Origin: an uncultured Myxococcales bacterium
GTDB taxonomy: Bacteria; Myxococcota_A; UBA9042
Reading direction: 5' to 3'
NCBI GenBank assembly: GCA_903924465.1
Contig: CAIYBN010000137.1
Location: 62,001-126,000 of the forward strand
Length of the DNA: 64,000 nucleotides
Position 1 is the stretch's first letter, and each line of letters opens with the position of its first letter. Below, in pieces: positions 23,902-37,215 of the stretch. The notes beneath the pieces are model-generated. The model worked only from the letters and a program-made list of their open reading frames with translations, did no database searches and was not told the DNA's origin. Both the position numbers and the translations under genes were made by a program.

Positions 23902-26736
23902 TCAGCGATCCAGGCCCCAAGGCGCTGCGAGATCGCGAATCCGCTGCACGTAGCCGGCCAACTGCACGCCGGTCCCTTCGCCGTGCTTGACGGTCAGCAT
24001 CTTGACGCGTTTCTTGCCGACGCCTTCGCTGTACGAACGCACAAAGCCTTGTTCGACAAAGATTTTCAGGGCGTTTCCAAGGTTGACGCGCGACACCGCT
24101 TCGTAGCACTGGACGTCGCCCAACTCGAACGCTTTGGCGGCCTCATTTTGCACATGTTCCAAAAAGTCCTTTTCCGCCATCGGCCCCTTTTGCAGCACCG
24201 ACAGCGCGCGACCCATGAGCGCGTACGACTCGATGAAATTCTGGACCAATTTCGCATACAGCCGCACCACCGGCAGGACCGTCGGCCGCAGGCGCAGCTT
24301 GCCGTTGGGTTCGCGCACGAGCCAACTGGAGGCCAGGAAATCCTGCAGCGTCGCGTCGTACATTTGTTCAAACGACACGCCCGGCGCATACACGAACTCG
24401 AACTTCAGGAGACGAGACAGGAATTTCGTCATGTCGCCCAGCTCGTCCGGCTCGAGCAGGTCCTCCTGCACTTGCAGCGCCAGCACGCTGGACGCCAGCA
24501 GCGCGTCAGGCACGAAGAGATGCAGCATGTTGTTTTTGTAGTAGTCGAGGTGCAGACGGCCTTCGGTCTTGGTGATGTAGATGTCCTGGTCGTCAAATCG
24601 CCGCACGTGAATCCATTTGGCGTTTTCAAACATTTTCAGCACTTCGTCGACAATGCCCTCCACTGCCTGGCCCATGCGGCGGGAATGCTCGCCGGTCTTG
24701 CCCAGCGGCTCCGGGACGCCGCCCGACTCGGCGTGGCGGTGCAGATCTGCGCTTTCCGCCTCGCGAATGTGCGCCCGCCTCACGCGGATGGCCATGACCA
24801 ACGTTTCCGACAACACGGCGCCGCGCCGGCCTGCGACGTCCAGCAAGTAACCGACGCGCACCAGCAGGTCCTTGCGGGAAATGCCGCGCCGCACCTTGGT
24901 CAGGAGTACGGCCGCGACAATCGACGTCGGCGTGATGACCGCCGCCGCGTTGATGCCACCCAGGATGCGATAGCCGCAGACTTTCAGCGCCCGATCGAAC
25001 GCCTTCGCATCGCGCACCGCCGCGGGCATCAGCGCATTGTTCTCCGCCAGAATTTCCCGCACCGACATCGGGTGGCCGAACTGAATGCGAATTCGCCCGT
25101 ACTTGTGCACCAGCACGCTGGTCGCCTTCAGCACTTCAACCGGAGATTCGGCTTTCTTTTCTCCGCCTTCCAGTTCGCGCCGATACGCCTTTTCCTCGAT
25201 CAGCCGCTCGTAGCCAAAGTTGGTCGGCATCAGCACGACATCGGGCTGCAGACCGTCCGCGACCGCTTCCAGCACGTGCTTGAGCAGACCAAACTTGGGT
25301 GGCAGCAACTTGCCAGTGCGCGAACGTCCGCCTTCCAGGAAGAACTCCAGCCAGTGGCCGTCGCGGATCAGCTTGCGGAAATAGTGGCGGAAAATCGACG
25401 CGTAAATGGGCTGGCCGTGGAAACTTCGGCGCAGGAAGAACGCTCCCGAACCGCGGAAGATGACGCCCAGCGGAAAAAACGAAAGGTTCGATCCTGCGGC
25501 AATATGCGGTGGAATCAGGCCGTTGCGGTAGAACAGGTAGCTGATCAGCAGGTAGTCGATGTGGCTCTTGTGGCTCGGCACGATCACGATCGGCGTCTTG
25601 CGCCCCGCCTCGCGAATGCGCTCCATGCCGTCTTCGTCGACCTCGATGCCTTCATAAATTCGCGCCCAGAGCAGGGTCAGGAACAGCGACAGCGCGCTCA
25701 GCATCCCCATGCTGTAGTCCGCGGCAATTTCCTTCAGGTTTTCATCTGCTTCCTCGCGAACTTCGGCAATCGGCTGCTTGGTCTCTTCCGCCAGCCGCAT
25801 CAGGTCGCGCATCACTTCTGGATCGTTGAGAATTTCCTCGCGCAGCTGTTTCGGCGGCTTGATCGGCGCACCGCGAATCACCCGCTGTTCCACCTGGAAC
25901 GAGCGATCGATCTGCACCCGCAGCAACTCGGCGAGCAGGCGATCGTCCTGCCGGTTCGGGTGCTCGGCCAGAAACTTTTGGACGTTGACCGGCTCGCCCG
26001 ACTGCACGAACGCGCGGCGGTGATTCAGGATGAAGCTGAAGAGCTTGCGAAACCGCCCGGGCGCGTCCGGATCGCCAAAGAATTCGTCAATGATGCGGGT
26101 GCGACTGCGCTCCGGATCGCGCTCCCACACCAGCAGCTGCGGCGCGAGCAGGATGGGAAACGACAGACTTCGCTGGGCTTCGATCAGCTCGGCGAGGTAG
26201 GGCAGATCGGACTTGGGGTTGATCAGATCCAACAGGCTGAATACGCGGTGCAGGAACAGCAGAACAGCGTGCTTGCGCTGCAGGTGGCCGCACAGAATCT
26301 CGACTTCCGGCGGTTGCGGCCGGTGCAGCACACGCCGACGGAACCAGCCGCTGATCGCCCGTCGCCACGGCTGGAAGGCCAGCATGGACGGGCCGTTGGA
26401 AAAGTGGGCAAGCGGCAACTGCGCGTCGCGAAAGACATAGTTGAAGTACAGGTAGTCGAGCAAGCTCGTGGTGCGCATGGTGTAGACCAGCACGCCATCT
26501 TGCGAGAGCTCCTTGAGATCCTGGATTTGCCGGACCGGAAACGTCACCGGCTTGAAAAAAATCCACGCGAACAGGCGCAGAAACATGCCCGGGTGGTCGA
26601 CCATCCCCGTCACGTGCACCAGGTCGGCGTCCGTCCAGCGATCCGCACCCGGCTGCGAGCCCAATTGCGCCAAGCTCAGCGGCTGCAGTTGGGCGGAATC
26701 GTTCGAACTTGGCGGCGGCGGTGAGGTCGTGGTCAT
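23902..26736 (-). CDS. plsB: Glycerol-3-phosphate 1-O-acyltransferase, PlsB type
   Basis: PlsB acylates the sn-1 position of glycerol-3-phosphate, the first step of phospholipid synthesis at the inner membrane. The 944-residue length is in the usual range (about 800-950). The acyltransferase block shows the catalytic H-K-S-H-I-D (HX4D, first His near residue 389), G-S-N-L-S-F-F-P-L-G with G-A-F-F-L-R-R, F-L-E-G-G-R-S-R-T-G-K, and a V-V-L-M-P-T-N block. The start is the ATG at 26736; the frame stays open to 27036, but that part overlaps the divergent gene and lacks conservation. Only 72 bases separate it from the divergent plus-strand gene, so both promoters must share that space. Confidence 0.93.
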   Translation of the reverse strand: MTTTSPPPPSSNDSAQLQPLSLAQLGSQPGADRWTDADLVHVTGMVDHPGMFLRLFAWIFFKPVTFPVRQIQDLKELSQDGVLVYTMRTTSLLDYLYFNYVFRDAQLPLAHFSNGPSMLAFQPWRRAISGWFRRRVLHRPQPPEVEILCGHLQRKHAVLLFLHRVFSLLDLINPKSDLPYLAELIEAQRSLSFPILLAPQLLVWERDPERSRTRIIDEFFGDPDAPGRFRKLFSFILNHRRAFVQSGEPVNVQKFLAEHPNRQDDRLLAELLRVQIDRSFQVEQRVIRGAPIKPPKQLREEILNDPEVMRDLMRLAEETKQPIAEVREEADENLKEIAADYSMGMLSALSLFLTLLWARIYEGIEVDEDGMERIREAGRKTPIVIVPSHKSHIDYLLISYLFYRNGLIPPHIAAGSNLSFFPLGVIFRGSGAFFLRRSFHGQPIYASIFRHYFRKLIRDGHWLEFFLEGGRSRTGKLLPPKFGLLKHVLEAVADGLQPDVVLMPTNFGYERLIEEKAYRRELEGGEKKAESPVEVLKATSVLVHKYGRIRIQFGHPMSVREILAENNALMPAAVRDAKAFDRALKVCGYRILGGINAAAVITPTSIVAAVLLTKVRRGISRKDLLVRVGYLLDVAGRRGAVLSETLVMAIRVRRAHIREAESADLHRHAESGGVPEPLGKTGEHSRRMGQAVEGIVDEVLKMFENAKWIHVRRFDDQDIYITKTEGRLHLDYYKNNMLHLFVPDALLASSVLALQVQEDLLEPDELGDMTKFLSRLLKFEFVYAPGVSFEQMYDATLQDFLASSWLVREPNGKLRLRPTVLPVVRLYAKLVQNFIESYALMGRALSVLQKGPMAEKDFLEHVQNEAAKAFELGDVQCYEAVSRVNLGNALKIFVEQGFVRSYSEGVGKKRVKMLTVKHGEGTGVQLAGYVQRIRDLAAPWGLDR

Positions 26737-26808
26737 TGCGGCGATCCTGTGCCAAGCGTTGTGGAAGTGCAAGCGTGTCGGGTACAACCGCGGGCCGGAG
26801 AACGGTGG

Positions 26809-27723
26809 ATGGCGATTGTCGACGAACTGGCGGGAGTGCGATGGCGACGCGGGCTGGCGTGTCGTCTGCCGCGGCTGTGGCTCGACCAACCGCGGGCGGG
26901 AGCGCTGGGAATCCTCGTGGACGCCGACATGCCGGTGCCGCCGCGCGCGCGGGTTCTGGCGACGCCGATGGCTGCCAACCTCGCGGGACTGACGGCGGGG
27001 CGCGCGCTGCAAGTCCCGTATGGCCAACCGTTTCAACTCGGCGCAGGTGCAGTGGAATTGCTGCCATCTGGCGCGTCATTGGGCGGCGCGATCGCCCGCC
27101 TGCACACCAAAGGTCAGACGGTGCTCGCGGTGCGCTCGGCGTCGCTCGACCCGCTGCCTTCTTGCGCGCAATTGGAACTGCGTGATGCGGACGTGCTTCT
27201 GCTCGATGCCGGCCTGGCCGAAGCCCACACGCTGAGCGCCGGGGAGTTGCGCGCGCACTTGCACGCCGCGATGAAGCCGCCCGCCCACGTGTGGCTGCTG
27301 CAAGAGCCGCTGCTCGCCCTCAATCTCCTGCTGTGGGCGGATGGTGCGCTCCGCCTCGCGCCGTCGCTGTTGCGGCTGGTCCAGCGCTCCGGTTTGCCGA
27401 TCCTGGCGCCGCAGTCGCCGGGCAAACAGCCGAGTGGCCTGCTCCTGTGGCCCCTCCGTCAAGCCGCGCGGCTGCCGCTCGCGTGGCGCGATGTGCCACG
27501 GTCGGTCGTGGCCGAGCCGGATCAGCCCATCGCCGACGGCCTTGCGCATCTGCCCTTCTCCCGGCGCCTGACCGGAGATACCCTGCAGGCATTGGCCCAG
27601 CAAGCCGCGTGTCCGACCGTGCTCGCGTGGGGCGCCGGGGCGGAATTCCTCGCGCATCGCCTGGCTGCAAACGGCCAGCAGTGTCACGTGTTGCGTATTC
27701 CGTTTCAACTTCCGCTCGTGTAG
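26809..27723 (+). CDS. Metallo-beta-lactamase-like exonuclease homologue without metal ligands (probable pseudoenzyme)
   Basis: 304 residues; ATG at 26809 after GGAG. The sequence follows the layout of the MBL/beta-CASP exonuclease family (RNA 3'-end-processing / DNA-ligase-associated): V-P-Y-G-Q-P-F-Q-L-G then V-E-L-L-P-S-G-A-S-L-G-G, where active members read P-A-G-H-x-L-G-S-A. It continues with D-A-D-V-L-L-L-D-A-G, where they have E-A-T-F-G. At each expected ligand site the residue is gone: the H-A-H-x-D-H site reads D-A-D-M-P-V, the G-H reads G-A, and a C-terminal H-G reads W-G. So the fold is probably kept but the nuclease is dead. The resemblance is by eye and moderately secure. It is followed after 9 bases by the lipid-kinase gene. 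Confidence 0.5.
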   Translation: MAIVDELAGVRWRRGLACRLPRLWLDQPRAGALGILVDADMPVPPRARVLATPMAANLAGLTAGRALQVPYGQPFQLGAGAVELLPSGASLGGAIARLHTKGQTVLAVRSASLDPLPSCAQLELRDADVLLLDAGLAEAHTLSAGELRAHLHAAMKPPAHVWLLQEPLLALNLLLWADGALRLAPSLLRLVQRSGLPILAPQSPGKQPSGLLLWPLRQAARLPLAWRDVPRSVVAEPDQPIADGLAHLPFSRRLTGDTLQALAQQAACPTVLAWGAGAEFLAHRLAANGQQCHVLRIPFQLPLV

Positions 27724-27732
27724 GAACCCTTC

Positions 27733-28782
27733 ATGGCTCAACCGCTCATCGGCGTGATTACCAACCCGAACTCCAAGAAAAACCGCCTGAATCCAGGCCG
27801 ATACGACACAATGCGCCGTTTGGTTGGCGATCTGGGCCTGGTCAAGCGCACGCACCATACCGGGGAGATCGCGGATGTTGTGCGGGAATTTCTCGATGCC
27901 GGCGTGCCGTATTGGCTGGCGGACGGTGGCGACGGCGCGTTTCACTGGTTGGTCAATGTGCTCGAACAGGTGCTGCAGGAGCGCGGCCACACGGGGCCGC
28001 TGCCGGCGATCATGCCGACGAATGCCGGAACCATCGATTTTGTCGGGCGCAAGGCCGGCGTGGTGGGCCACACGGAGCAACTCATCGTTGCATTGGGCAG
28101 GCAGCTCCGCAGCGGTCAGACGCCGCAGATTGTCACGCTCGACAGCTTGCGAGTGCGCGGTTTGCATGGCCCGGACTCGGATTTTCCGGGAAAGCCGTTT
28201 GACAAGATTGGCTTTGCGACCGCGATGGCCGGTGCAGGGCAGGCGGTGTTCGACAAGTTCTATGCCCAGCAGAACCAGAGCGGGCTCGGCGTCGTGCAAC
28301 TGGTCGCCAAGACGCTGACTTCCGCGGCCTCGCAGTCGCCGTTTCTGGACTGGGTGCCGCTGCCGGTCACCTGGCGGCACTTCTCGGATACGATTTTTGA
28401 GCCGCAGCCGCTGGATGTCTGGGTGGACGGCGAGCAAAAGTCCATCAAGTGGTACCGTGACCTGGACGTTGGCTCGATCGACATCAACATCGCCGGCTTG
28501 TTTCGCTTCTTTCCCTGCGCGGCCGAGCCGGGCGTGTTGCACGTCCAGGGTGGCGACGTCAGCCCGTGGGAAGTGGCCAAGAACCTGCCGGCGATGTCTG
28601 CGGGCAAGCCGCTGCAGATTCACAACTTTTTTCAAGGACCGGCGAGGCACCTGAAAGTCGTGGCGCGCGATGGCCGGACGATTGATCCCGTCATCGATGG
28701 CGAGCTGTATTACGGTTTGGTGCATGCGACCGTCGAGGCAGGACCACCGGTGCGGGTGGTCGCGGTGCGTGGCGACGCATGA
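27733..28782 (+). CDS. Diacylglycerol kinase-family lipid kinase
   Basis: 349 residues. The N-terminal domain has I-T-N-P-N-S-K-K-N, the nucleotide-binding A-D-G-G-D-G-A near residues 63-69 and M-P-T-N-A-G-T-I-D-F, which correspond to the N-P-x-S-G, G-G-D-G and G-T-x-N-D-F signatures of the DAGK catalytic domain. A beta-rich C-terminal part fits the YegS/DgkB fold. The family phosphorylates diacylglycerol, sphingosine-like bases or other lipids; the substrate here is undetermined. A sphingosine-1-phosphate-lyase-like gene lies elsewhere in the window, so a sphingoid-base kinase role is worth keeping open. It starts 9 bases after the upstream gene and 117 bases before the AsmA/GT51 gene, so an operon is likely. 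Confidence 0.85.
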   Translation: MAQPLIGVITNPNSKKNRLNPGRYDTMRRLVGDLGLVKRTHHTGEIADVVREFLDAGVPYWLADGGDGAFHWLVNVLEQVLQERGHTGPLPAIMPTNAGTIDFVGRKAGVVGHTEQLIVALGRQLRSGQTPQIVTLDSLRVRGLHGPDSDFPGKPFDKIGFATAMAGAGQAVFDKFYAQQNQSGLGVVQLVAKTLTSAASQSPFLDWVPLPVTWRHFSDTIFEPQPLDVWVDGEQKSIKWYRDLDVGSIDINIAGLFRFFPCAAEPGVLHVQGGDVSPWEVAKNLPAMSAGKPLQIHNFFQGPARHLKVVARDGRTIDPVIDGELYYGLVHATVEAGPPVRVVAVRGDA

Positions 28783-28899
28783 CCCTTCGGGCAACTCGGC
28801 GGGCATGACCGGCACCCCACTTTTTGGCCGAGATCCCAACGCCATGCGACCATGAGGGATTGTTCGCCGCGCGTGCGGCTGCTGCTCTCTGGGAAAGCC

Positions 28900-31812
28900 A
28901 TGCGTTTTCGCAAACTTGCCATCGCGTTGGCCATCTCGCTGCTGCTGGCCGTCGGCCTGTGGCTGGGGGCACGCCATTGGCTGGAGCAGGTCGTGGCGCA
29001 GAAGCTGCAGGCGCGGCTGGCCGGGTCGGATTTTGACCTGCGTTGGCAATCGCTGTCCCTCGGGCCGACGGGCAAGCTCGCGCTGCGGCAATTGGTCCTT
29101 CACGATGCGGTGAGCGAGACCGACGTCCTGACGGCGGCGGAAATCGACGCAAATGTCGCCATCTGGCCGTCGCTGGTGGGGCAAAAACGCCTGGATGGGC
29201 TGCGGCTCCTGGATGTGCGGCTGCGCGTCGACGTGGCGGATGGCCACGCGGACGTGCTGGAACGGCTGCGCAAGGCGCTGAAGAAGCGCACCGACGACCT
29301 CGACACGGGCGCGCACACGCCGCTGCTGGCGCGCCTGGGCGCGGTGGAGATCGAGTCGCTTGCGGTCACGGCCCAGCTTTCGCGCCAGGGTGAGATGGCG
29401 CTCAAGACGACCGCGACGCTCCAGGGTCGGGTGCAGCTTGCCGATCCGGGCAGCGAACTGACCGCGCAGCTGGACGCGACGCTGGGCGGCGGCAAGGTTG
29501 CACTGGCGCTGGAGCATCCCGATGGCCAACTGCTGGCGGTGCGCGCGGCGAGTCAGCCGAGGGTGACGGTCGCGTTGCAGCTTTTGTATCCGAAAGCGCC
29601 GCCGAACTGGCAGGTGGTGGTTCGCGCGTTGGCGCTGGAGAAGGTGGGGCCGGATTGGCAACTCGTACTGGCGGACGTCGGCATGGGGTCGGTCGACGAC
29701 CAGGTGCTGACGGCGTCTGAAGTGCGCGTGCATCCGGACAAGTCGCTGGCAGTGCGCGACGTGCGGCTCTCGGCCAAGCCGGCGATGCAGGCGCAGCTCT
29801 TGCCAGAACCGCTGCGGAAACGCCTGGAGGACGTGGGGCTGAGCGGCGAATGGACCGCGACGGTGGCCACCTTGACGGTGCAGCCTGGGGCGGAGCGCGC
29901 GCTCGCGGTCGATGCGGGCAACCTGGCCTTGGGCATCGCGGGCCTGGAGGCGCGACTCGTGCGTTTGCAGCTGGCGCTGACCGATCGCCATGCGCTGCGC
30001 AACCCGGCCAGCTGGCGGATGATTCAGCTGGATGAGCCGACGCTTTCGTTGCCGATCGACGGTCCGTTGCTGCAAAAGGACGAGAACCTGGCGGCGGAAA
30101 TCGCCCACCTCGCGGCGCTGCGCAAGCCGGCGGATGAGCCAGACGACGACGACGCGACGGACGAGAACGTCGACCCGGATACGTTGCCGGAAACGCCGCC
30201 GGAGGACGACCCGACGCGGCCGCCGACCGCGGCGGAGCGGTCGAAGGAAAAGCCCGGCGTGCGCTGGACGCGGGCCATCAACAACCTGCAGACGCGGCTC
30301 CTGGGCCTGCACGACAAGCTGGATGAACTGTGGCCGGACACGCCGCTACCGGCTTCGCTGACGATTCAGGTGCGTGGTGGGCGGCTGGAGCTGACCGACC
30401 ATGCAGGCAAGGCCGTGCTGGGCGCGCGCGACGGGCGCGTGGAATTGCTGCCGCCGGAAAACGGCGTCCGCAAGCTGAGTTTTGGCGCGGAGCCGTTTGA
30501 TTCGGCGGGCTCGTGGGGGCACATGGGCGCGACGTGGCAGCATGACGCCACGGGACATCGGCTGGACGTCCGGCTGTCTGGCGCCGGCATCGCGCAACTG
30601 CTGGCGATCAAAGCCAAAGGTCTCGCGGTACAGCCGGAGGCCGATATCGAGCTGCTGGCGACGCTGGCCTTGCCCGACGACGATCGCGTGGACGTGTCGG
30701 GGCGGCTGTCGGTGACGCACATGGGCGTGCACTGGTGGCGTCTGGCGGAAAGGCCGATTGCCGATCTGCGCTTGAACATGCCGTTTGAGCTGCACGTGCG
30801 CCGACATCCGGCGACCATCCAATTCCGCTCACCGGACGTGTATTTTGGCGGCGCGGGCGACGATGCGATGGCGCATTTGGCGGTGGATCTGGACATCTTT
30901 GCCGCCGACGCCAAGCCGCGGGTGCACTTTGCCCTGGAGGCGCCGGTGCAGGAGTCGGCGGACATGCTGCACGCGATTCCGCCGTCGCTGCTGCCGACGA
31001 TTGGCCGCATCGACGCGCACGGGCCGCTGGGCTGGCGGGTCGCGGTGACTGTGCCGCTGGCGATGACCGGTGCGGCGCAGGTGGAGCTGGCGCTGGGCGA
31101 CACGAACTGCGTCATGGACAACTTTGGCAACATCCTCCTGGAAGAACTCAACGAGGATTTTGACCGCCCGGTGAACGAAAACGGCACGATCCTGGAAGAT
31201 GTGCACATCGGGCCCGCCTCGGGCTCCTGGACACCGCTCGAAGAAATTCCCGCACACGTGGTCTATTCCATCTGGGCGACGGAAGACTCGTTCTTCCGCC
31301 ACCGCGGGATTTCAGAAAGCCTCGTGTCCAAGGCGCTGGCGATCGATTTGTCCTACGGCCGCTTCATTTACGGCGGTTCGACCATCACCCAGCAGCTGGT
31401 CAAGAACTTGTATCTGGTGCGGCACAAGGCGTTGTCGCGCAAGTTCGAGGAAATGCTGATCGCTTGGCAGATGGAAAAAGTCGTCGGCAAGCAGCGGATT
31501 TTGGAGATCTACATCAATGGCGTGGAATTTGGCCCCAAGATCTACGGCATCACGCGCGCGGCGTGGGCGTTCTTTGGCAAGTCCCCGGGCGAGTTGATTC
31601 CCAAGGAAGGCGTGTACCTCGGCATCATCAAGCCCAGCCCGCGATCGGGCTATGGCACGGCGCGGGCGAACGGCTGGGGCGATTGGTACGACATGAAGGT
31701 GACCAAGTACATGGATCGGCTGCTGGATGAGGACTTCATCTCGCCGGAGGAGTACGAGGCGGAAAAGCCGTTCAAGCCGAAGTTCGACGTGCAGTCGGGC
31801 AAAGGGCAATAG
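28900..31812 (+). CDS. AsmA-like / GT51 peptidoglycan glycosyltransferase fusion, copy 2
   Basis: 970 residues from the ATG at 28900 (GGAAAG just upstream; another ATG at 28852 is in frame). Order: N-terminal membrane anchor (about residues 5-25), a long AsmA-like periplasmic region with an acidic D/E/P insert near residues 410-450, and a C-terminal GT51 domain. That domain has E795 in T-E-D-S-F-F-R-H-R-G, then G-G-S-T-I-T-Q-Q-L-V-K-N-L, S-R-K-F-E-E and I-Y-I-N-G-V-E-F-G-P-K-I-Y-G-I. Catalytic glutamates are kept; no transpeptidase domain is present. It has the same architecture as the protein at 18530-21460, on the opposite strand about 7.4 kb away, but the AsmA-like parts are strongly diverged. 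It is expected to polymerise glycan strands. Confidence 0.88.
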   Translation: MRFRKLAIALAISLLLAVGLWLGARHWLEQVVAQKLQARLAGSDFDLRWQSLSLGPTGKLALRQLVLHDAVSETDVLTAAEIDANVAIWPSLVGQKRLDGLRLLDVRLRVDVADGHADVLERLRKALKKRTDDLDTGAHTPLLARLGAVEIESLAVTAQLSRQGEMALKTTATLQGRVQLADPGSELTAQLDATLGGGKVALALEHPDGQLLAVRAASQPRVTVALQLLYPKAPPNWQVVVRALALEKVGPDWQLVLADVGMGSVDDQVLTASEVRVHPDKSLAVRDVRLSAKPAMQAQLLPEPLRKRLEDVGLSGEWTATVATLTVQPGAERALAVDAGNLALGIAGLEARLVRLQLALTDRHALRNPASWRMIQLDEPTLSLPIDGPLLQKDENLAAEIAHLAALRKPADEPDDDDATDENVDPDTLPETPPEDDPTRPPTAAERSKEKPGVRWTRAINNLQTRLLGLHDKLDELWPDTPLPASLTIQVRGGRLELTDHAGKAVLGARDGRVELLPPENGVRKLSFGAEPFDSAGSWGHMGATWQHDATGHRLDVRLSGAGIAQLLAIKAKGLAVQPEADIELLATLALPDDDRVDVSGRLSVTHMGVHWWRLAERPIADLRLNMPFELHVRRHPATIQFRSPDVYFGGAGDDAMAHLAVDLDIFAADAKPRVHFALEAPVQESADMLHAIPPSLLPTIGRIDAHGPLGWRVAVTVPLAMTGAAQVELALGDTNCVMDNFGNILLEELNEDFDRPVNENGTILEDVHIGPASGSWTPLEEIPAHVVYSIWATEDSFFRHRGISESLVSKALAIDLSYGRFIYGGSTITQQLVKNLYLVRHKALSRKFEEMLIAWQMEKVVGKQRILEIYINGVEFGPKIYGITRAAWAFFGKSPGELIPKEGVYLGIIKPSPRSGYGTARANGWGDWYDMKVTKYMDRLLDEDFISPEEYEAEKPFKPKFDVQSGKGQ

Positions 31813-32050: not shown

Positions 32051-35000
32051 TCACTTCACGCAGCGCACGCGGAAGGTGTTGGCTTTGTCGTTGCCTTCCG
32101 ACTTGCCTTCGCTGAAATAGACGCTCCAGATGTTGACGCTGGAGCCTCCGGCGCCCGATGTCGCCCAGAACCACTCCGACGGTGTCGCGGGGAACACCAC
32201 GGCATCGATGGCCGGACTGCTGACGCTGCGGTCGACAAGGCTGCGCAATTCCACGATGTTGGGCATCCGCCAGCCCATGCTGCCATCGAGGACCAAGCTC
32301 GCGCAATAGGCCTGCGCGCTGCCGGGCGTTTCCGCGCTCGCGTCGAGCGCCCGCTGCCAGATCAACTGCGTCCACGTGTCGGTGACGGTGTCGACGGCGG
32401 TGGTGAAGCGCTTGCCGGTCTGGCTGGCTGTGGTGCCGCGCACGCAGCGCACGTGGTTTTTCGAACTGAGCATGGCCGGAGCCTCGTCGCCGACGACGAA
32501 ACTGATGCTCCACGCGTTGCCTGCGCCGTTGGCGAGTGGTGTAGCGCTCCAGTAGCCGAGGCTGACGTTGGTCTGCAACAGGTTGGTCGTCGCGGGGTTG
32601 AGCTTGTTGAAGTCGATGAGCGTGCTCAGCTCCGCCAGCGTTGGCAGGCGCCAGTCGGTCACGTTGGCGAGCTTGGAGGTGATGCAGAACTGGTTGGCCT
32701 GGTCCCACGTGTAGGTGACGCCTGCCGGGTCGGCCTGCTGCCACGTCAAGCCGGTGTCCGTGTCGCTGACGGTGCCGTCTGCGTTGTCGCTGAAGCCGGC
32801 GGGCGAGTAGGGCAGGTTGCCCCAAACGGGACCGTCGGCGGCGCAGACTTTGCCGTCGCCGCTGGTGACGCTGAGGTAGCCGGGGGCGCAAATGCAGGTG
32901 CCCGCGGCGCACGTGGCGCCGTTGCCGCACACGGTGCCGTCGACCATGTTGGCGTGCCAGCAGCCGCTCTTGGCGGCGTTGCACAGGTCGGCCGTGCACG
33001 GGTTGCTGTCGTCACAGTCGGAGACATTGAGCGCGGCGCAAGTGCCGGACGCGGCACACGAGGCGTTGCCCCAGAGGTCGGTGCGGTGGAGCCAGAAGCT
33101 CTGCGATCCGGTGACGTTGGTGTTGCCGGCGATCGCGAAACCGTCGCTGAGCGCGGCGATGGCGTGGAAGCTCTGCGAATTACCGGCACCGACCGTCGCG
33201 TCCCACAACTTGTTGCCGTCCCAGTCGGTCCGGACCACGTAGCCGTTGCCGCCGGAGTTGCCGACCAGCGCGAGGCCGTTGCTGTCCATGCTCAAGCCAG
33301 TAACGGATTCTGCCGCGCTGGTGCCAAATGTTTGGCTCCACAGCTTGACGCCGCTCGCGTCGGTGCGGATGAGCCACATGTCCGATGCGCCGGAGCCGGT
33401 CGTCTCGCCGCCGAGGATGAAGCCGTCCGCGGTGGCCACAACCGCATGTGCGGCGTCGAATGTGCCGTGCGCATAGCTCTGTGCCCACAACTGCACGCCG
33501 CTTGGGTCGGTGCGGACGAGCCAGGCGTGGCCCGTGCTCGCGCTGATGGAAGCCGTGAGGCCAGCCAGGGCAAAGCCATCGGGGAGTGCGGCAATCGCGT
33601 TGAACGCGTCCACATTCGCGCCGTCATAGGACTTTTGCCAAAGCTGCGCGCCGGAAGCATCGGTCCGGATCAAGTAGCCGTTCTGCGTCGTCGCGCCCAG
33701 GGACATCGTCGCGCCAGCCAGCGCGTAGCCGTCGGCAACAGCGGCAAGCGCGTAGGCGTAGTCGTCGCCCTTGTCGCCCAGTTCGGCGTTGAGCGCGAGC
33801 TTGCCCGCGGCATCCGTCGTCAACAGGAAGCAGTCTTCGCCATTGTTGTCGGAGCCCACCGAGCCGGCGACCGCGAATCCATTGCTGGTGGCAACGACCG
33901 CAGAGGCCGAACCGTCATACGAGCCGAGGGAGTACGTTTTGTCCCACGCCAATGCGCCGGCGCCGTCGGTGCGGACGATGCGCACATCGCCCGCGGTGCT
34001 GACGTTCTTGGGCGAGCCGGCGACAACGAATCCGCCAGGCGCAATGGCCAGATAGCCGCCCGTGCCCATGGTGCCAGCGAATTGTGTGTCGAACAACTTC
34101 GCGCCACCGCCGCCGCACGCACCCGCAGTGCACGTCTGCGCGACCAGGCACGCGTCGCCGGAACTGCACGGTGAGGTGTCCGGCAAGTTGCTGTGCCAGC
34201 AGCCTGAGTGCGCGGCGTCGCACAGGTCGGCGGTGCAGGGGTTGCTGTCGTCGCACTCGTTGGTGTAGCCGGAGCAGATGCCGGAGGTGGCGCAGGAGGT
34301 GTTGCCCCATGGGTCGGTGCGGAGCAGCAACATGTCGCTCTCCGTGCTGGTGGGTCCGATCGACCCAGCGACGGCGAAACCGGAACCACCAAGGTCGACG
34401 ATCGCCGCCAGACCGTCGTTGCCGGTGCCGCCGAAAGTGCGGTCCCAAAGTTGGTTGCCCGACAGGTCCGTGCGTACGAGCCAGCCGTCGCTGTTGCCCG
34501 CGCCCTTCGATTGGGTCGAGCCGACCAACGCGAAGCCACTGTCGCCCACCAGAACGAGTCCGACGCCGTAGTCGTCGGCGCCACCGCCATAGGTGCGGTC
34601 CCATAGCAGGTTGCCGGCTTCGTCGGTTCGCAGAAACCATAAATCGTGGCCGCCCGCGCCTTTGGAACTCGTGCCGCCCAGGATCGCAAAGCCGCCGTCG
34701 CCCATCTGGCGGGCCTGACGGGCACCCTGATTGCCGTCGCCGCCGAAAGCGCGACTCCAGAGCAGATTGCCGTCGCCGTCGGTGCGAATGAGCAGGACAT
34801 CCGTCTTCGTCGGCGTGTTGGTCCAGCCGGTCGAGCCGACAAGCGCGAACCCACCGTCGGCGGTTTGCAGGACGAAGTTGGCACCATCGAAAACCGAATC
34901 CAACTGCGGCCCGATGTACGTCCGCGTCCAGAGGACCGCGCCGTCCGCGTCCGTACGCACCAACCATGCGTCGTAGTTGTCCGCGCTCTTGACGGAACTC

Positions 35001-36106
35001 ATCCCTGCGAAGACAAGCCCGCCGTCGGGCGTCTGAAGACCAGAATAGAGGTAGTCAAACCCCGCGCCGCCGTAGGTCTTGTCCCAGAGTTTCTTGCCGG
35101 TCGCATCGGTGCGTACGACCCAGCCGTCCCCGCCGGCGCTGCCTACGATGGCGAATCCGCCGTCGTTCGTTTGCACCAGCGCAGATGGCTGCACGTCGCC
35201 CCAGCAGCCCCCAAGCCCCGCCGGGCAGAGGTCAAACGCTTGGGCCCAAAGCTGCTTGCCTGCGGCATCGGTGCGGATGAGTCCAAATGCGACCTTTGGG
35301 CCCCATAGGGCACTGGCGACCGCAAAACCACCGTCAGCCGTTGCGACAATGCCCCATCCAACATTCAACGTGGAACTGTCGCCAAACGTCTTCTCAAACA
35401 ACTTCGCGCTTCCCGCACAAGTCATCCCCGCGCACACATCTCCGACCGTGCACGCATCCCCGTCATCGCATGTCGTTCCGGCCATCACGACCGTATTCAC
35501 GCAGCCCAACGACGCAGTGCAGCTATCGTTGGTGCACGAATTCCCATCGCCGCAGTTCTTGGTCGTGCCGGTGCACACGCCGCTCGCGCAGGCGTCGTTC
35601 TCGGTGCACTTTTTGCCGTCGTCGCAGGCCCAACCGTCGATCTTGCTGGTGGGTACGCACTTGCCGGTCGTCGGCGCGCACGCCTGGGTGGCGCAGGGCA
35701 AGTCCACACAGGTCACGCTGGCGCACAAGTCCACATCCGGCGCATCCAAAGTGCTATCGGCGTCGTCCAACGAGACTTCGGACGCGTCCAAGGCGTCCAT
35801 TGTCGTGTCCAACGAGACTTCGGACACGTCCAAGGCGTCCGTTGTCGTGTCCAACGAGACTTCGGACATGTCCAGGGCGTCCATTGTCGTATCCAATGAG
35901 ACTTCGGACACGTCCAAGGTGTCCGTTGTCGTATCCAATGAGACTTCGGACACGTCCAAGGCGTCCATTGTCGTGTCCAAAGAGACTTCGGACGCGTCCT
36001 CACCGCTGATATCCGGATTCTGATCCGAAAACGCCTCGCGCGGTGGCACCGGGATGCTGCACGCCGTCGTCAGGACGGCACAAAATACCAGTGCGCGCCA
36101 CGTCAT
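32051..36106 (-). CDS. Large lipoprotein: 14-residue tandem repeats, Cys-rich segment, propeller-like repeats, DUF1566 C-terminus
   Basis: 1351 residues from the ATG at 36106; the frame is open upstream, but that is antisense reading of the TPR gene's coding DNA. Lipobox L-T-T-A-C-S. Then: five to six 14-residue repeats of the type S-E-V-S-L-D-T-T-M-D-A-L-D-V (about residues 35-115); a Cys-rich stretch with C-x-D-G-x-x-C-T repeats; many copies of a roughly 50-residue D-G-G-F-A-x-x-G ... R-T-D-x-x-G-N-x-L-W unit, likely beta-propellers; and DUF1566-like domains at the C-terminus (D-W-R-L-P-T-L-A-E-L, V-R-C-V-R-G, and again M-G-W-R-M-P-N). A surface-anchored protein with binding propellers is likely; function unknown. 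The start overlaps the upstream TPR gene's stop by one base, so translation is coupled. Confidence 0.87.
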   Translation of the reverse strand: MTWRALVFCAVLTTACSIPVPPREAFSDQNPDISGEDASEVSLDTTMDALDVSEVSLDTTTDTLDVSEVSLDTTMDALDMSEVSLDTTTDALDVSEVSLDTTMDALDASEVSLDDADSTLDAPDVDLCASVTCVDLPCATQACAPTTGKCVPTSKIDGWACDDGKKCTENDACASGVCTGTTKNCGDGNSCTNDSCTASLGCVNTVVMAGTTCDDGDACTVGDVCAGMTCAGSAKLFEKTFGDSSTLNVGWGIVATADGGFAVASALWGPKVAFGLIRTDAAGKQLWAQAFDLCPAGLGGCWGDVQPSALVQTNDGGFAIVGSAGGDGWVVRTDATGKKLWDKTYGGAGFDYLYSGLQTPDGGLVFAGMSSVKSADNYDAWLVRTDADGAVLWTRTYIGPQLDSVFDGANFVLQTADGGFALVGSTGWTNTPTKTDVLLIRTDGDGNLLWSRAFGGDGNQGARQARQMGDGGFAILGGTSSKGAGGHDLWFLRTDEAGNLLWDRTYGGGADDYGVGLVLVGDSGFALVGSTQSKGAGNSDGWLVRTDLSGNQLWDRTFGGTGNDGLAAIVDLGGSGFAVAGSIGPTSTESDMLLLRTDPWGNTSCATSGICSGYTNECDDSNPCTADLCDAAHSGCWHSNLPDTSPCSSGDACLVAQTCTAGACGGGGAKLFDTQFAGTMGTGGYLAIAPGGFVVAGSPKNVSTAGDVRIVRTDGAGALAWDKTYSLGSYDGSASAVVATSNGFAVAGSVGSDNNGEDCFLLTTDAAGKLALNAELGDKGDDYAYALAAVADGYALAGATMSLGATTQNGYLIRTDASGAQLWQKSYDGANVDAFNAIAALPDGFALAGLTASISASTGHAWLVRTDPSGVQLWAQSYAHGTFDAAHAVVATADGFILGGETTGSGASDMWLIRTDASGVKLWSQTFGTSAAESVTGLSMDSNGLALVGNSGGNGYVVRTDWDGNKLWDATVGAGNSQSFHAIAALSDGFAIAGNTNVTGSQSFWLHRTDLWGNASCAASGTCAALNVSDCDDSNPCTADLCNAAKSGCWHANMVDGTVCGNGATCAAGTCICAPGYLSVTSGDGKVCAADGPVWGNLPYSPAGFSDNADGTVSDTDTGLTWQQADPAGVTYTWDQANQFCITSKLANVTDWRLPTLAELSTLIDFNKLNPATTNLLQTNVSLGYWSATPLANGAGNAWSISFVVGDEAPAMLSSKNHVRCVRGTTASQTGKRFTTAVDTVTDTWTQLIWQRALDASAETPGSAQAYCASLVLDGSMGWRMPNIVELRSLVDRSVSSPAIDAVVFPATPSEWFWATSGAGGSSVNIWSVYFSEGKSEGNDKANTFRVRCVK
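35766..35999 (-). repeat. 42-bp tandem repeat array inside the lipoprotein gene
   Basis: Five complete 42-base units (35766-35975) and a partial sixth, differing mostly by single bases. Each encodes a 14-residue unit such as S-E-V-S-L-D-T-T-M-D-A-L-D-V. Because 42 is a multiple of three, copy-number change would keep the frame. The array forms a flexible acidic stalk directly after the lipidated N-terminus. Confidence 0.92.
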
Positions 36107-37215
36107 CAAAACCGCCCTGCGAGTGCCATGCCATGCCAGTCGGGCACCAGCGCCACGTTGGCGTCGCTCGACGTCAATGCCAGATACGCGCCCACGCCGG
36201 CCGCCGCCAGACCGACGCCGACAAACGCCACGCCGGTCGTCTGCAACGAGCCGATCCACTGCGCCCGGCTCGTCGCTTGGCCATAGGTCAGCGAACCGTG
36301 CACGACCGTCCCGTCGTAGTTCAGGTCCTGATTGAACTGCGCCTCCGCGGACTTGCCCAGAATCACCAGCGCGACGCCCGTCACCGCGAACGCCGCGCCG
36401 CTGCCCAGCGTCCACCAACCCGCGGTCCGGCGTGCGGACGTCGGTTGCTGCGGCTGTTCCACGTGTTGCACGGGCGGCGGAGGCAGATTCGACATGACCG
36501 GCTTGACCACCGGCGCTTTCAGTGGCTCGGGCGCCCGCTCCACCGGCGCGACCACGACTCGCTTGCCGGCGCGCGCGTCCAGCATGGCCTGCGCCTCCGC
36601 GCGATCCGGCGCATCCGCAGGCGCGCGACCCAGATACTCTTTCAGCCACGTCTCCGAACGCTTGCGGTCGCCACTTTCATCCGCTGCCCGCGCGGCTTTG
36701 AGCAACAGCGGCAGGCGATCCGGCCGCAGACGCCACGCTTCGCCATACGCCGCTTCCGCCACGCGCCATTCGCTGCGCTTGGCGGCGCGATCCCCGGCCT
36801 GGGCTTTCTCGTCCGCGTGCAAGCCATCGAATTCCGTCAAATAGCCTTTCGCCTTGGCGACTCGCGCCGGCTCCGCGTTCGGCACGTCCACAAACTGCCG
36901 GTAAAGTTCCTCTGCCCGGTCGCGCTGCCCCGCCGACTGCTCCGCCCGCGCCGCGCCGTACAGGTAGTTCGGCTCCGACGGGTCTGTGTGCCACGCTTCG
37001 AGGTAGACCTGTGCCGCGCGGTCCATGTCGCCCGCTTCAAACGCCTTCGCCGCTTGTTGCGCCAGCGCCACCGCAGTCTTTCGCGCGTCAATGGCATGCG
37101 CCGGCCAAGCAAAGAGGAACAGGCTTATGCAAATCAGAAAGTTACGCCCAGCTTGCGGAAGCCGCGGGACCTGCTGTCGTGTCCTTCGCCCTGTCGTGTC
37201 CGCCGGTATCGCCAT
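36106..37215 (-). CDS. Periplasmic/membrane TPR protein, partner of the downstream lipoprotein
   Basis: 369 residues. A hydrophobic N-terminal segment ending W-P-A-H-A-I-D-A looks like a signal peptide; the start at 37215 could also be further inside the N-terminus. Residues 45-240 carry tetratricopeptide-like repeats (A-A-K-A-F-E-A-G-D-M-D-R-A-A-Q-V-Y-L-E-A-W). A proline-rich linker follows (P-P-P-P-V-Q-H), then two hydrophobic segments near the C-terminus (T-L-G-S-G-A-A-F-A-V-T-G and V-A-F-V-G-V-G-L-A-A). The layout resembles TPR proteins common in Myxococcota and Bradymonadota. The stop overlaps the ATG of the large lipoprotein gene (TGATG), indicating translational coupling. Divergent from the PilZ gene. 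Confidence 0.8.
   Translation of the reverse strand: MAIPADTTGRRTRQQVPRLPQAGRNFLICISLFLFAWPAHAIDARKTAVALAQQAAKAFEAGDMDRAAQVYLEAWHTDPSEPNYLYGAARAEQSAGQRDRAEELYRQFVDVPNAEPARVAKAKGYLTEFDGLHADEKAQAGDRAAKRSEWRVAEAAYGEAWRLRPDRLPLLLKAARAADESGDRKRSETWLKEYLGRAPADAPDRAEAQAMLDARAGKRVVVAPVERAPEPLKAPVVKPVMSNLPPPPVQHVEQPQQPTSARRTAGWWTLGSGAAFAVTGVALVILGKSAEAQFNQDLNYDGTVVHGSLTYGQATSRAQWIGSLQTTGVAFVGVGLAAAGVGAYLALTSSDANVALVPDWHGMALAGRF

Follow-up and report, generated by a model that had tools for sequence, protein, structure and literature searches.

A candidate clamp-tethered pseudonuclease of the SNM1/TIGR04122 branch in Myxococcota-like bacteria

We describe a gene of an uncultured Myxococcales bacterium whose product is homologous to metallo-beta-lactamase (MBL)/beta-CASP nucleases, has lost their metal site and ends in a short tail resembling the motifs that bind the beta sliding clamp (DnaN). 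The gene lies at positions 26809-27723 of the forward strand of the window, as we call the whole analysed stretch of 64,000 nucleotides. Sequence comparisons establish the homology, show that the metal site is lost and that the gene is under purifying selection, group such proteins in a single clade within the phylum, and reveal a nearly invariant tail that is missing from the active sister enzymes. The reading we favour, and hold to be reasonably probable, is that of a clamp-tethered pseudonuclease of the SNM1/TIGR04122 branch, with its tail docking on DnaN and the protein working like ImuB. Taken by itself, docking of the tail on DnaN is likely; that the docked dead body serves replication-coupled repair or tolerance is a tentative proposal, and any link of the pseudonuclease to DNA damage is hypothetical.

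Gene structure and selection

The open reading frame at 26809-27723 (+) encodes 304 amino acids, from an ATG start to a TAG stop. On direct reading, a ribosome-binding site, GGAG, is found at 26797-26800 (+), 8 nt 5' of the ATG, and the frame is uninterrupted, so that the original prediction of a good ribosome-binding site and an intact frame holds. A hexamer TACAAC at 26783-26788, 20 nt upstream of the start codon, is a possible -10 box; TACAAC-like letters ("YN" when translated in the upstream frame) also precede several orthologues.

The source is a draft genome in 149 contigs. It was compared with four congeners, uncultured "Myxococcales" MAGs that are its closest named relatives, and in the alignment the start and the length of the ORF are common to the window and all four. 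Across the ten pairs of these sequences, dN/dS (Nei-Gojobori) is 0.19-0.34 at dS values of 0.53-1.14, and 125, 85 and 230 variable sites fall on codon positions 1, 2 and 3, respectively. The opposite strand of the gene also bears long spurious ORFs; despite these, the codon-position pattern and the dN/dS range identify the pseudonuclease ORF as a real, selected gene. Selection at the codon level, one of the checks proposed along with the original prediction, is therefore purifying across the window and its four congeners.

Homology to MBL/beta-CASP nucleases

The window protein alone matched no family in a Pfam scan and no PDB entry in a phmmer search. In the NCBIfam scan its match to TIGR04122 stayed below threshold, scoring 14.5 bits (E = 0.012) where the cut-off is 325, and a match to CcmA was equally weak (E = 0.04). 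Two of the congeners match TIGR04122 directly, with E = 4.6e-6 and 2.0e-5. Relatives were then compared as profiles: A1 is an order-level alignment of 16 rows; A3 holds 15 enzymes of the TIGR04122 type from the phylum; A4 is a wider alignment of 31 of the 53 clade rows introduced below, in which 27 of the 30 non-window rows are 19-36% identical to the window protein; and A5 is a profile without the window's family. Aligned by hhalign, A1 and A3 match with a probability of 98.8 and E = 1.4e-16 over 291 columns, and A4 and A3 with E = 3.6e-38 over 310 columns. The significance of the first comparison bears out the earlier assignment of the product as an MBL exonuclease homologue.

Matches to solved nucleases point the same way. 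The A4 profile retrieves the RNase TTHA0252 (E = 1.1e-11), CPSF73 (2e-11), Apollo (4.2e-6) and Artemis (8.3e-5), and the profile of the canonical enzymes retrieves the same kinds of PDB entry. SNM1A is not significantly matched by A4 (E = 1.8), and is matched by A5 with E = 3.5e-6. Nine further clade members gave sub-threshold Pfam matches or none, MBL-type domains (RMMBL, Lactamase_B_2, Lactamase_B_6) appearing in five of the nine. An AlphaFold2 model built from only five rows has a mean pLDDT of 38.3, and the MBL fold is therefore inferred from sequence. Judged by this domain-length profile homology, the gene product is a member of the MBL/beta-CASP superfamily, in its SNM1/TIGR04122 branch.

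With the TIGR04122 exonucleases the window protein shares homology over nearly the full length (the 291 and 310 columns above) and the landmarks Y-G, [LI]-G and P-[AS]-G-x-x-x-G. It differs from them in lacking the metal ligands, in falling far under the 325-bit cut-off and in having a clamp-type tail, which is missing from all 18 canonical-type rows. Membership in TIGR04122 proper is ruled out by the score of 14.5 bits against 325, the lost ligands and the absence of a TIGR04120 ligase from the 22 genomes of the order.

Distribution and sampling

The A1 profile has matches at E <= 1e-3 in 20 of the 22 genomes of the order, in 36 of the 52 genomes of the class and in at least 77 of the 377 genomes of the phylum, six candidates having been scored per genome. 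The 77 matching genomes comprise 55 with a readable non-canonical row, nine with a canonical enzyme over the cut-off, one (G011) in which the match is split over two contigs, and 12 that were read last. Subtraction of L062 and L104, which are cut at contig ends, from the 55 rows leaves the 53 clade rows counted throughout, 19 of them from the window's family (window included) and 34 from other families; L082 and L092 were not used. The last 12 genomes yielded three further members (in G350, G105 and G081) and nine other MBL proteins with HxHxDH, all outside the 53-row counts. Of the 18 canonical-type rows used as a reference, 16 exceed the TIGR04122 cut-off and two, L080 (313 bits) and L081 (262 bits), stay under it; A3 uses 15.

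None of the 22 genomes of the order encodes a canonical TIGR04122 protein over the cut-off, a TIGR04120 ligase, or a TIGR04121 helicase over the cut-off, Lhr-like helicases reaching 438 bits. The window's genome does encode another protein with a partial match (L021, 42 bits). Two genomes, G334 and G149, each carry a clade member alongside an enzyme of the canonical type, so the clade member is not a simple replacement of the canonical enzyme.

Loss of the metal site

As metal ligands of the superfamily we take H37, H39, D41, H42, H93, D114 and H305 (numbering of the canonical-type row L064), and the corresponding columns were read on a 73-row MAFFT alignment. The window protein has D, D, a gap, M, A, S and G there, keeping none of the seven. 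The register of the ligand loop varies between alignments: A4 against A3 (hhalign) lays H-A-H-x-D on D-A-D-M-P, again with none of seven kept, and A1 against A3 lays D40 on the motif Asp, which would give one of seven. None of the ligand histidines is kept in any of the three alignments. The claim that every metal ligand is lost thus stands in two alignments and is reduced by at most one Asp, D40, in the third; the particular replacement of H-A-H-x-D-H by D-A-D-M-P-V is likewise recovered from A4 against A3, the A1 comparison giving another register.

The former motifs can be located in the gene. The HxHxDH loop now reads V-D-A-D-M-P-V (residues 37-43, positions 26917-26937, +), as placed by hhalign and the column table with an uncertain exact register. 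The P-A-G-H-x-L-G block has become P-S-G-A-S-L-G (residues 86-92, 27064-27084, +) with A89 in place of the ligand His by hhalign and MAFFT, and the predicted change of G-H to G-A is seen in its P-S-G-A (residues 86-89). The former T-H-G is now W-G-A (residues 274-276, 27628-27636, +); here both methods put the ligand His on G275, one residue off the W-G that had been equated with the C-terminal H-G. An E-A-T-F-G block, said to be recognisable, is only faint, as LDAGLAEAH at residues 132-140 with D133 as the acid. At the beta-CASP columns the window protein has A for H199 and R for H283.

This loss extends over the whole clade. Among the canonical-type rows, 17 of 18 have all seven ligands and the remaining one has six, whereas of the 53 clade rows 36 have none, 12 have one and three have two, L061 has four and L083 has five. 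D41 is kept in no clade row, and a histidine at the H42 column occurs only in L041 and L103. Orthologues retaining the ligands were named beforehand as evidence of a recently decayed copy; the full set is found in none of the 53 clade rows with readable C-termini.

Catalysis might in principle continue through a rebuilt metal site or by metal-independent hydrolysis. Two acids, D38 and D40, do remain within what was the HxHxDH loop, and the A1 comparison aligns D40 with the motif Asp; 15 of the 19 rows of the window's family have D as the motif-A acid, and 30 of the 34 rows outside it retain the beta-CASP motif-B His (H199). Against this, no His or acid is conserved across the clade at any of the seven ligand columns, the residues that are conserved being mainly glycines, prolines and leucines together with the tail, and the motif-B His is lost in all 19 rows of the window's family. 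We therefore regard remaining catalysis as very improbable and retain the reading of a pseudonuclease. The contrast at motif B marks the window's family as the most degenerate one, and members of other families, to judge from the kept His, may still contact nucleic acid; the original prediction had suggested an RNA- or DNA-binding or regulatory protein.

Age of the loss

A quick IQ-TREE phylogeny of 69 rows, with L069 and L071 left out, has a branch (SH-aLRT 99) with all ligand-poor rows on one side and the canonical-type rows on the other. When the canonical rows serve as root, L083, the row with five of seven ligands, branches first among the ligand-poor ones. A single ligand-poor clade with this branching order indicates that the loss of ligands is old and was probably stepwise, with no local decay.

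The ligand loss by itself would also fit a recently decayed copy of an active exonuclease. Such a copy is refuted by the spread of matches in the order (20 of 22 genomes, none with a canonical enzyme over the cut-off), by the tree, by the clade-wide loss and by the dN/dS of 0.19-0.34, and we give it practically no credence. The same dN/dS range, together with the loss of ligands across the entire clade, agrees with the original description of a maintained pseudoenzyme.

A short conserved tail

The last five residues of the window protein, Q-L-P-L-V (residues 300-304, positions 27706-27720, +), form a candidate beta-clamp (DnaN) binding motif, as suggested by conservation and by control counts; the original prediction did not mention it. 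All 16 rows of the order-level alignment have Q300 and L303. The only invariant columns of A4 (31 rows) are G78, G88, Q300 and L303, this alignment excluding 22 of the 53 rows; the excluded ones include L040 and L045, which have M in place of L303, and L083, which has F. Tails of distant members read QLMLF, QLSLF, QLDLF, QLTLF, QLALF, QLPLF, QMDLF, QMALF, QIDLF, QLGLF and QLNLF. In the excerpts of the literature available, the beta-clamp motif is given as a C-terminal QL(S/D)LF (PMC9690074) and, in revised form, as a consensus Q-phi-x-[L/M]-[F/L] with an additional six-residue form (PMC13254535).

Motifs were counted in the last 25 residues, with a core defined as Q-phi-x-[LM] in which M was also allowed at position 2. 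This core occurs in 47 of the 53 clade rows (18 of 19 in the window's family and 29 of 34 in the others), which are kin, so that the tail counts are not independent events, and which were found with a search profile, A1, that itself contains the tail and may favour rows bearing it. Among the controls it occurs in none of the 18 canonical-type rows, in 12 of 364 neighbouring ORFs, as delimited by a home-made gene caller, and in 4.3% of shuffled proteins. The strict consensus is present in 18 of the 34 rows outside the window's family, in none of the 18 canonical-type rows, in one of the 364 neighbours and in 1.2% of the shuffles. Most rows of the window's family have V or M at position 5; the strict count there is 3 of 19, all from letters outside the terminal motif, and no terminal motif of the family is strict. 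QLPLV of the window fails the strict consensus at position 5 (V) alone. The six rows without the core have QPLLVP, QPDLPF, QIGFDF, QGSLF, QFRLL and QCALDL, which are related and off pattern; a wider, Q-initial pattern, devised after the tails had been inspected, covers all 53 rows. The three members added once the motif was defined also carry the core, as QLRLF (within SQLRLF), QLPLA and QLPLA. The latter two, L197 in G105 and L201 in G081, are short, strongly diverged members of family f29 in which QLPLAGL is followed by six residues.

An unlikely alternative is that the C-terminal Q-L-x-L-[V/F] belongs to the fold, as a strand or cap unrelated to DnaN, in a pseudoenzyme with some other function, for instance as a regulator of the neighbouring lipid genes. 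The invariance of Q300 and L303 could indeed be structural, and QLPLV lies off the strict clamp consensus. The tail, however, starts where the alignment with the canonical enzymes stops (residue 299 in A1 against A3, 298 in A4 against A3). It exists in five-residue (QLSLF) and six-residue (QMPLPL, QLELRL, QPDLPF) forms followed by 0 to 14 residues, which would suit a docking peptide better than a core strand, and outside the window's family it meets the strict consensus at the rate given above, against a single case among the neighbours.

The terminal phi-x-phi could also be a different kind of C-terminal address, namely an outer-membrane beta-signal, a PDZ ligand or a protease degron. In 24 of the 53 rows nothing follows the five-letter motif, and 22 of the 53 have F at position 5, as such an address might have it; in the other 29 rows, however, 1 to 14 residues lie beyond the motif, and the initial Q, present in all 53 rows by the wide pattern, is not known to be needed by such signals. 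The MBL homology starts at residue 13 (A1 against A3) and so leaves little room for a signal peptide. We consider an address of this kind highly improbable, a shade more so than residual catalysis, and continue with the tail as a putative clamp-docking peptide.

Sliding clamps of the same genomes

DnaN is present in all 19 genomes tested. That of the window's genome (G000) ends in MPMRM; the genome has in addition a second, divergent DnaN-like match, L193 (G000:C30:43192-43533), with 36 bits to PF02768 and a frame ending in IIMPMNPDGVA, whereas the congener G003 has a single DnaN match.

Several Y-family polymerases of the phylum also bear clamp-type motifs: QLALPF, QLWLFE, QPDLFT and QGLLFG. 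The last is the DinB motif of two congeners (L162 and L164), which suggests that the clamp pocket there probably accepts F and that QLPLV of the window may be a weak version of the motif. In mycobacterial ImuB the clamp motif is QLPLWG; its replacement abolishes ImuB foci and, according to earlier work cited in the same paper, also function (excerpt of PMC10421592). In at least one species, therefore, QLPL can dock even when neither F nor L comes next. In G044 the fourth motif place is F both in the clade member L083 (QIGFDF) and in the DinB L157 (QLHFPF), where others have L, as if in this single case the motif followed the local clamp.

Under the favoured reading, the C-terminal peptide would dock in the hydrophobic pocket of the clamp and so bring the pseudonuclease to DNA, anchoring the dead nuclease body at replication forks, repair gaps or breaks. 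A body that does not cut would there act as an adaptor or gatekeeper: it might recruit a partner, shield a DNA end or junction, or compete with other clients of the clamp. In this it would resemble ImuB, a dead Y-family polymerase serving as a clamp hub, and the dead subunits INTS9 and CPSF100, around which complexes are organised.

Relation to known systems

Each part of the proposed system is of a known kind. Among the nearest models is ImuB, a DNA enzyme that is likewise dead and bears a clamp motif, QLPLWG in mycobacteria against QLPLV in the window (excerpt of PMC10421592); ImuB, however, is a Y-family polymerase, whereas the window protein belongs by profiles, without a Pfam match, to MBL/beta-CASP. 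INTS9 and CPSF100 are dead MBL/beta-CASP subunits of the same superfamily as the window protein. HxHxDH is not conserved in INTS9, and the inactive subunit has been suggested to position other modules close to its active partner (PMC7980224, in the part available). These subunits differ from the window protein in acting in eukaryotic RNA 3'-end processing and in being paired with an active paralogue, and the excerpted text of PMC7980224 mentions no clamp motif. As to a pairing of that type, the order has no TIGR04122 protein over the cut-off, and the window's genome has the protein with a partial match, L021.

Two active nucleases are tied to clamps. SNM1A (DCLRE1A) is an MBL/beta-CASP repair nuclease that binds PCNA through a PIP box, according to the available part of PMC7607226; unlike the window protein it is an active exonuclease, and its clamp and motif are eukaryotic. 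RecB docks on the beta-clamp through QVEMEF, residues 1018-1023 of its nuclease domain, and is thus a repair nuclease held on the bacterial clamp by a short motif (available part of PMC13254535); it differs in belonging to the active RecBCD enzyme and to another family, and in having the motif inside the nuclease domain.

In the open-access literature searched we found no paper joining clamp binding with bacterial MBL/beta-CASP proteins or ligase-associated exonucleases, nor the combination of a dead nuclease with a clamp tail. If the tail binds DnaN, the phylum has a clamp client that is without a Pfam model in the ten members scanned and, as far as the window protein goes, without an NCBIfam name. 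It would represent a bacterial nuclease turned into a clamp adaptor, in parallel with ImuB among polymerases and INTS9/CPSF100 in RNA processing. On a wider view, which we rate as evenly balanced, the clade could be an undescribed, widespread replication or repair component of Myxococcota-like bacteria, an SNM1-type lineage that lost catalysis while a clamp-docking tail was either kept or acquired, and so a second dead-enzyme clamp hub besides ImuB, built from a nuclease. The series of clade members from five of seven ligands (L083) to none allows the change from enzyme to pseudoenzyme to be studied with the putative docking peptide kept, making the clade a system for following the loss of catalysis while this peptide stays.

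Genomic neighbourhood

A lipid kinase with a DAGK_cat domain (27733-28782, +) starts 9 nt after the stop codon of the pseudonuclease and is probably co-transcribed with it, and a PlsB-type glycerol-3-phosphate acyltransferase is divergently encoded upstream (23902-26736, -; start codon picked by eye). In 13 of the 19 loci of the window's family the kinase follows the pseudonuclease on the same strand, as it does in none of 23 outside it. PlsB is divergent upstream in 16 of the 19 and near in one of the 23, there 2 kb off and on the other side. The operon position beside a lipid kinase, noted in the original prediction, is therefore real in the window and specific to its lineage.

A regulator of these lipid genes, the example given above of another function, would agree with their conservation within the window's family; in the 23 loci outside the family both genes are lacking, save the one PlsB 2 kb off, yet the tail persists. 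Restriction of the lipid neighbours to one family is evidence against a fixed role in lipid metabolism, and docking on the clamp stays the preferred explanation of the tail. Elsewhere in the clade, the loci scanned have a histidine kinase with pilus assembly genes, a penicillin-binding protein, a chemotaxis receptor, PilZ or Tat as neighbours. The scanned neighbours of clade members include no repair genes; they belong to lipid, peptidoglycan, pilus, signalling or Tat functions.

We considered and rejected a repair operon conserved about the pseudonuclease gene, the scanned neighbours varying by lineage. Ligase, helicase and phosphoesterase are absent from the three window neighbours scanned. 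Of the two canonical loci scanned, L131 has a ligase nearby; L132 has an Lhr helicase, a phosphoesterase and a further gene grouping with the ligase of L131.

Two further ORFs of the window deserve mention. The first (28852-31812, +) encodes a 986-aa protein with a lone transglycosylase domain, PF00912, at residues 788-932, an odd architecture for a peptidoglycan glycosyltransferase: the N-terminal part is very long and has only a weak GspN-like match, and no transpeptidase domain was matched. The second, a long ORF at 32051-36649 (-), contains repeated SEVSLDTT-type and GGDGW/DGG-type units and is perhaps a surface or secreted repeat protein.
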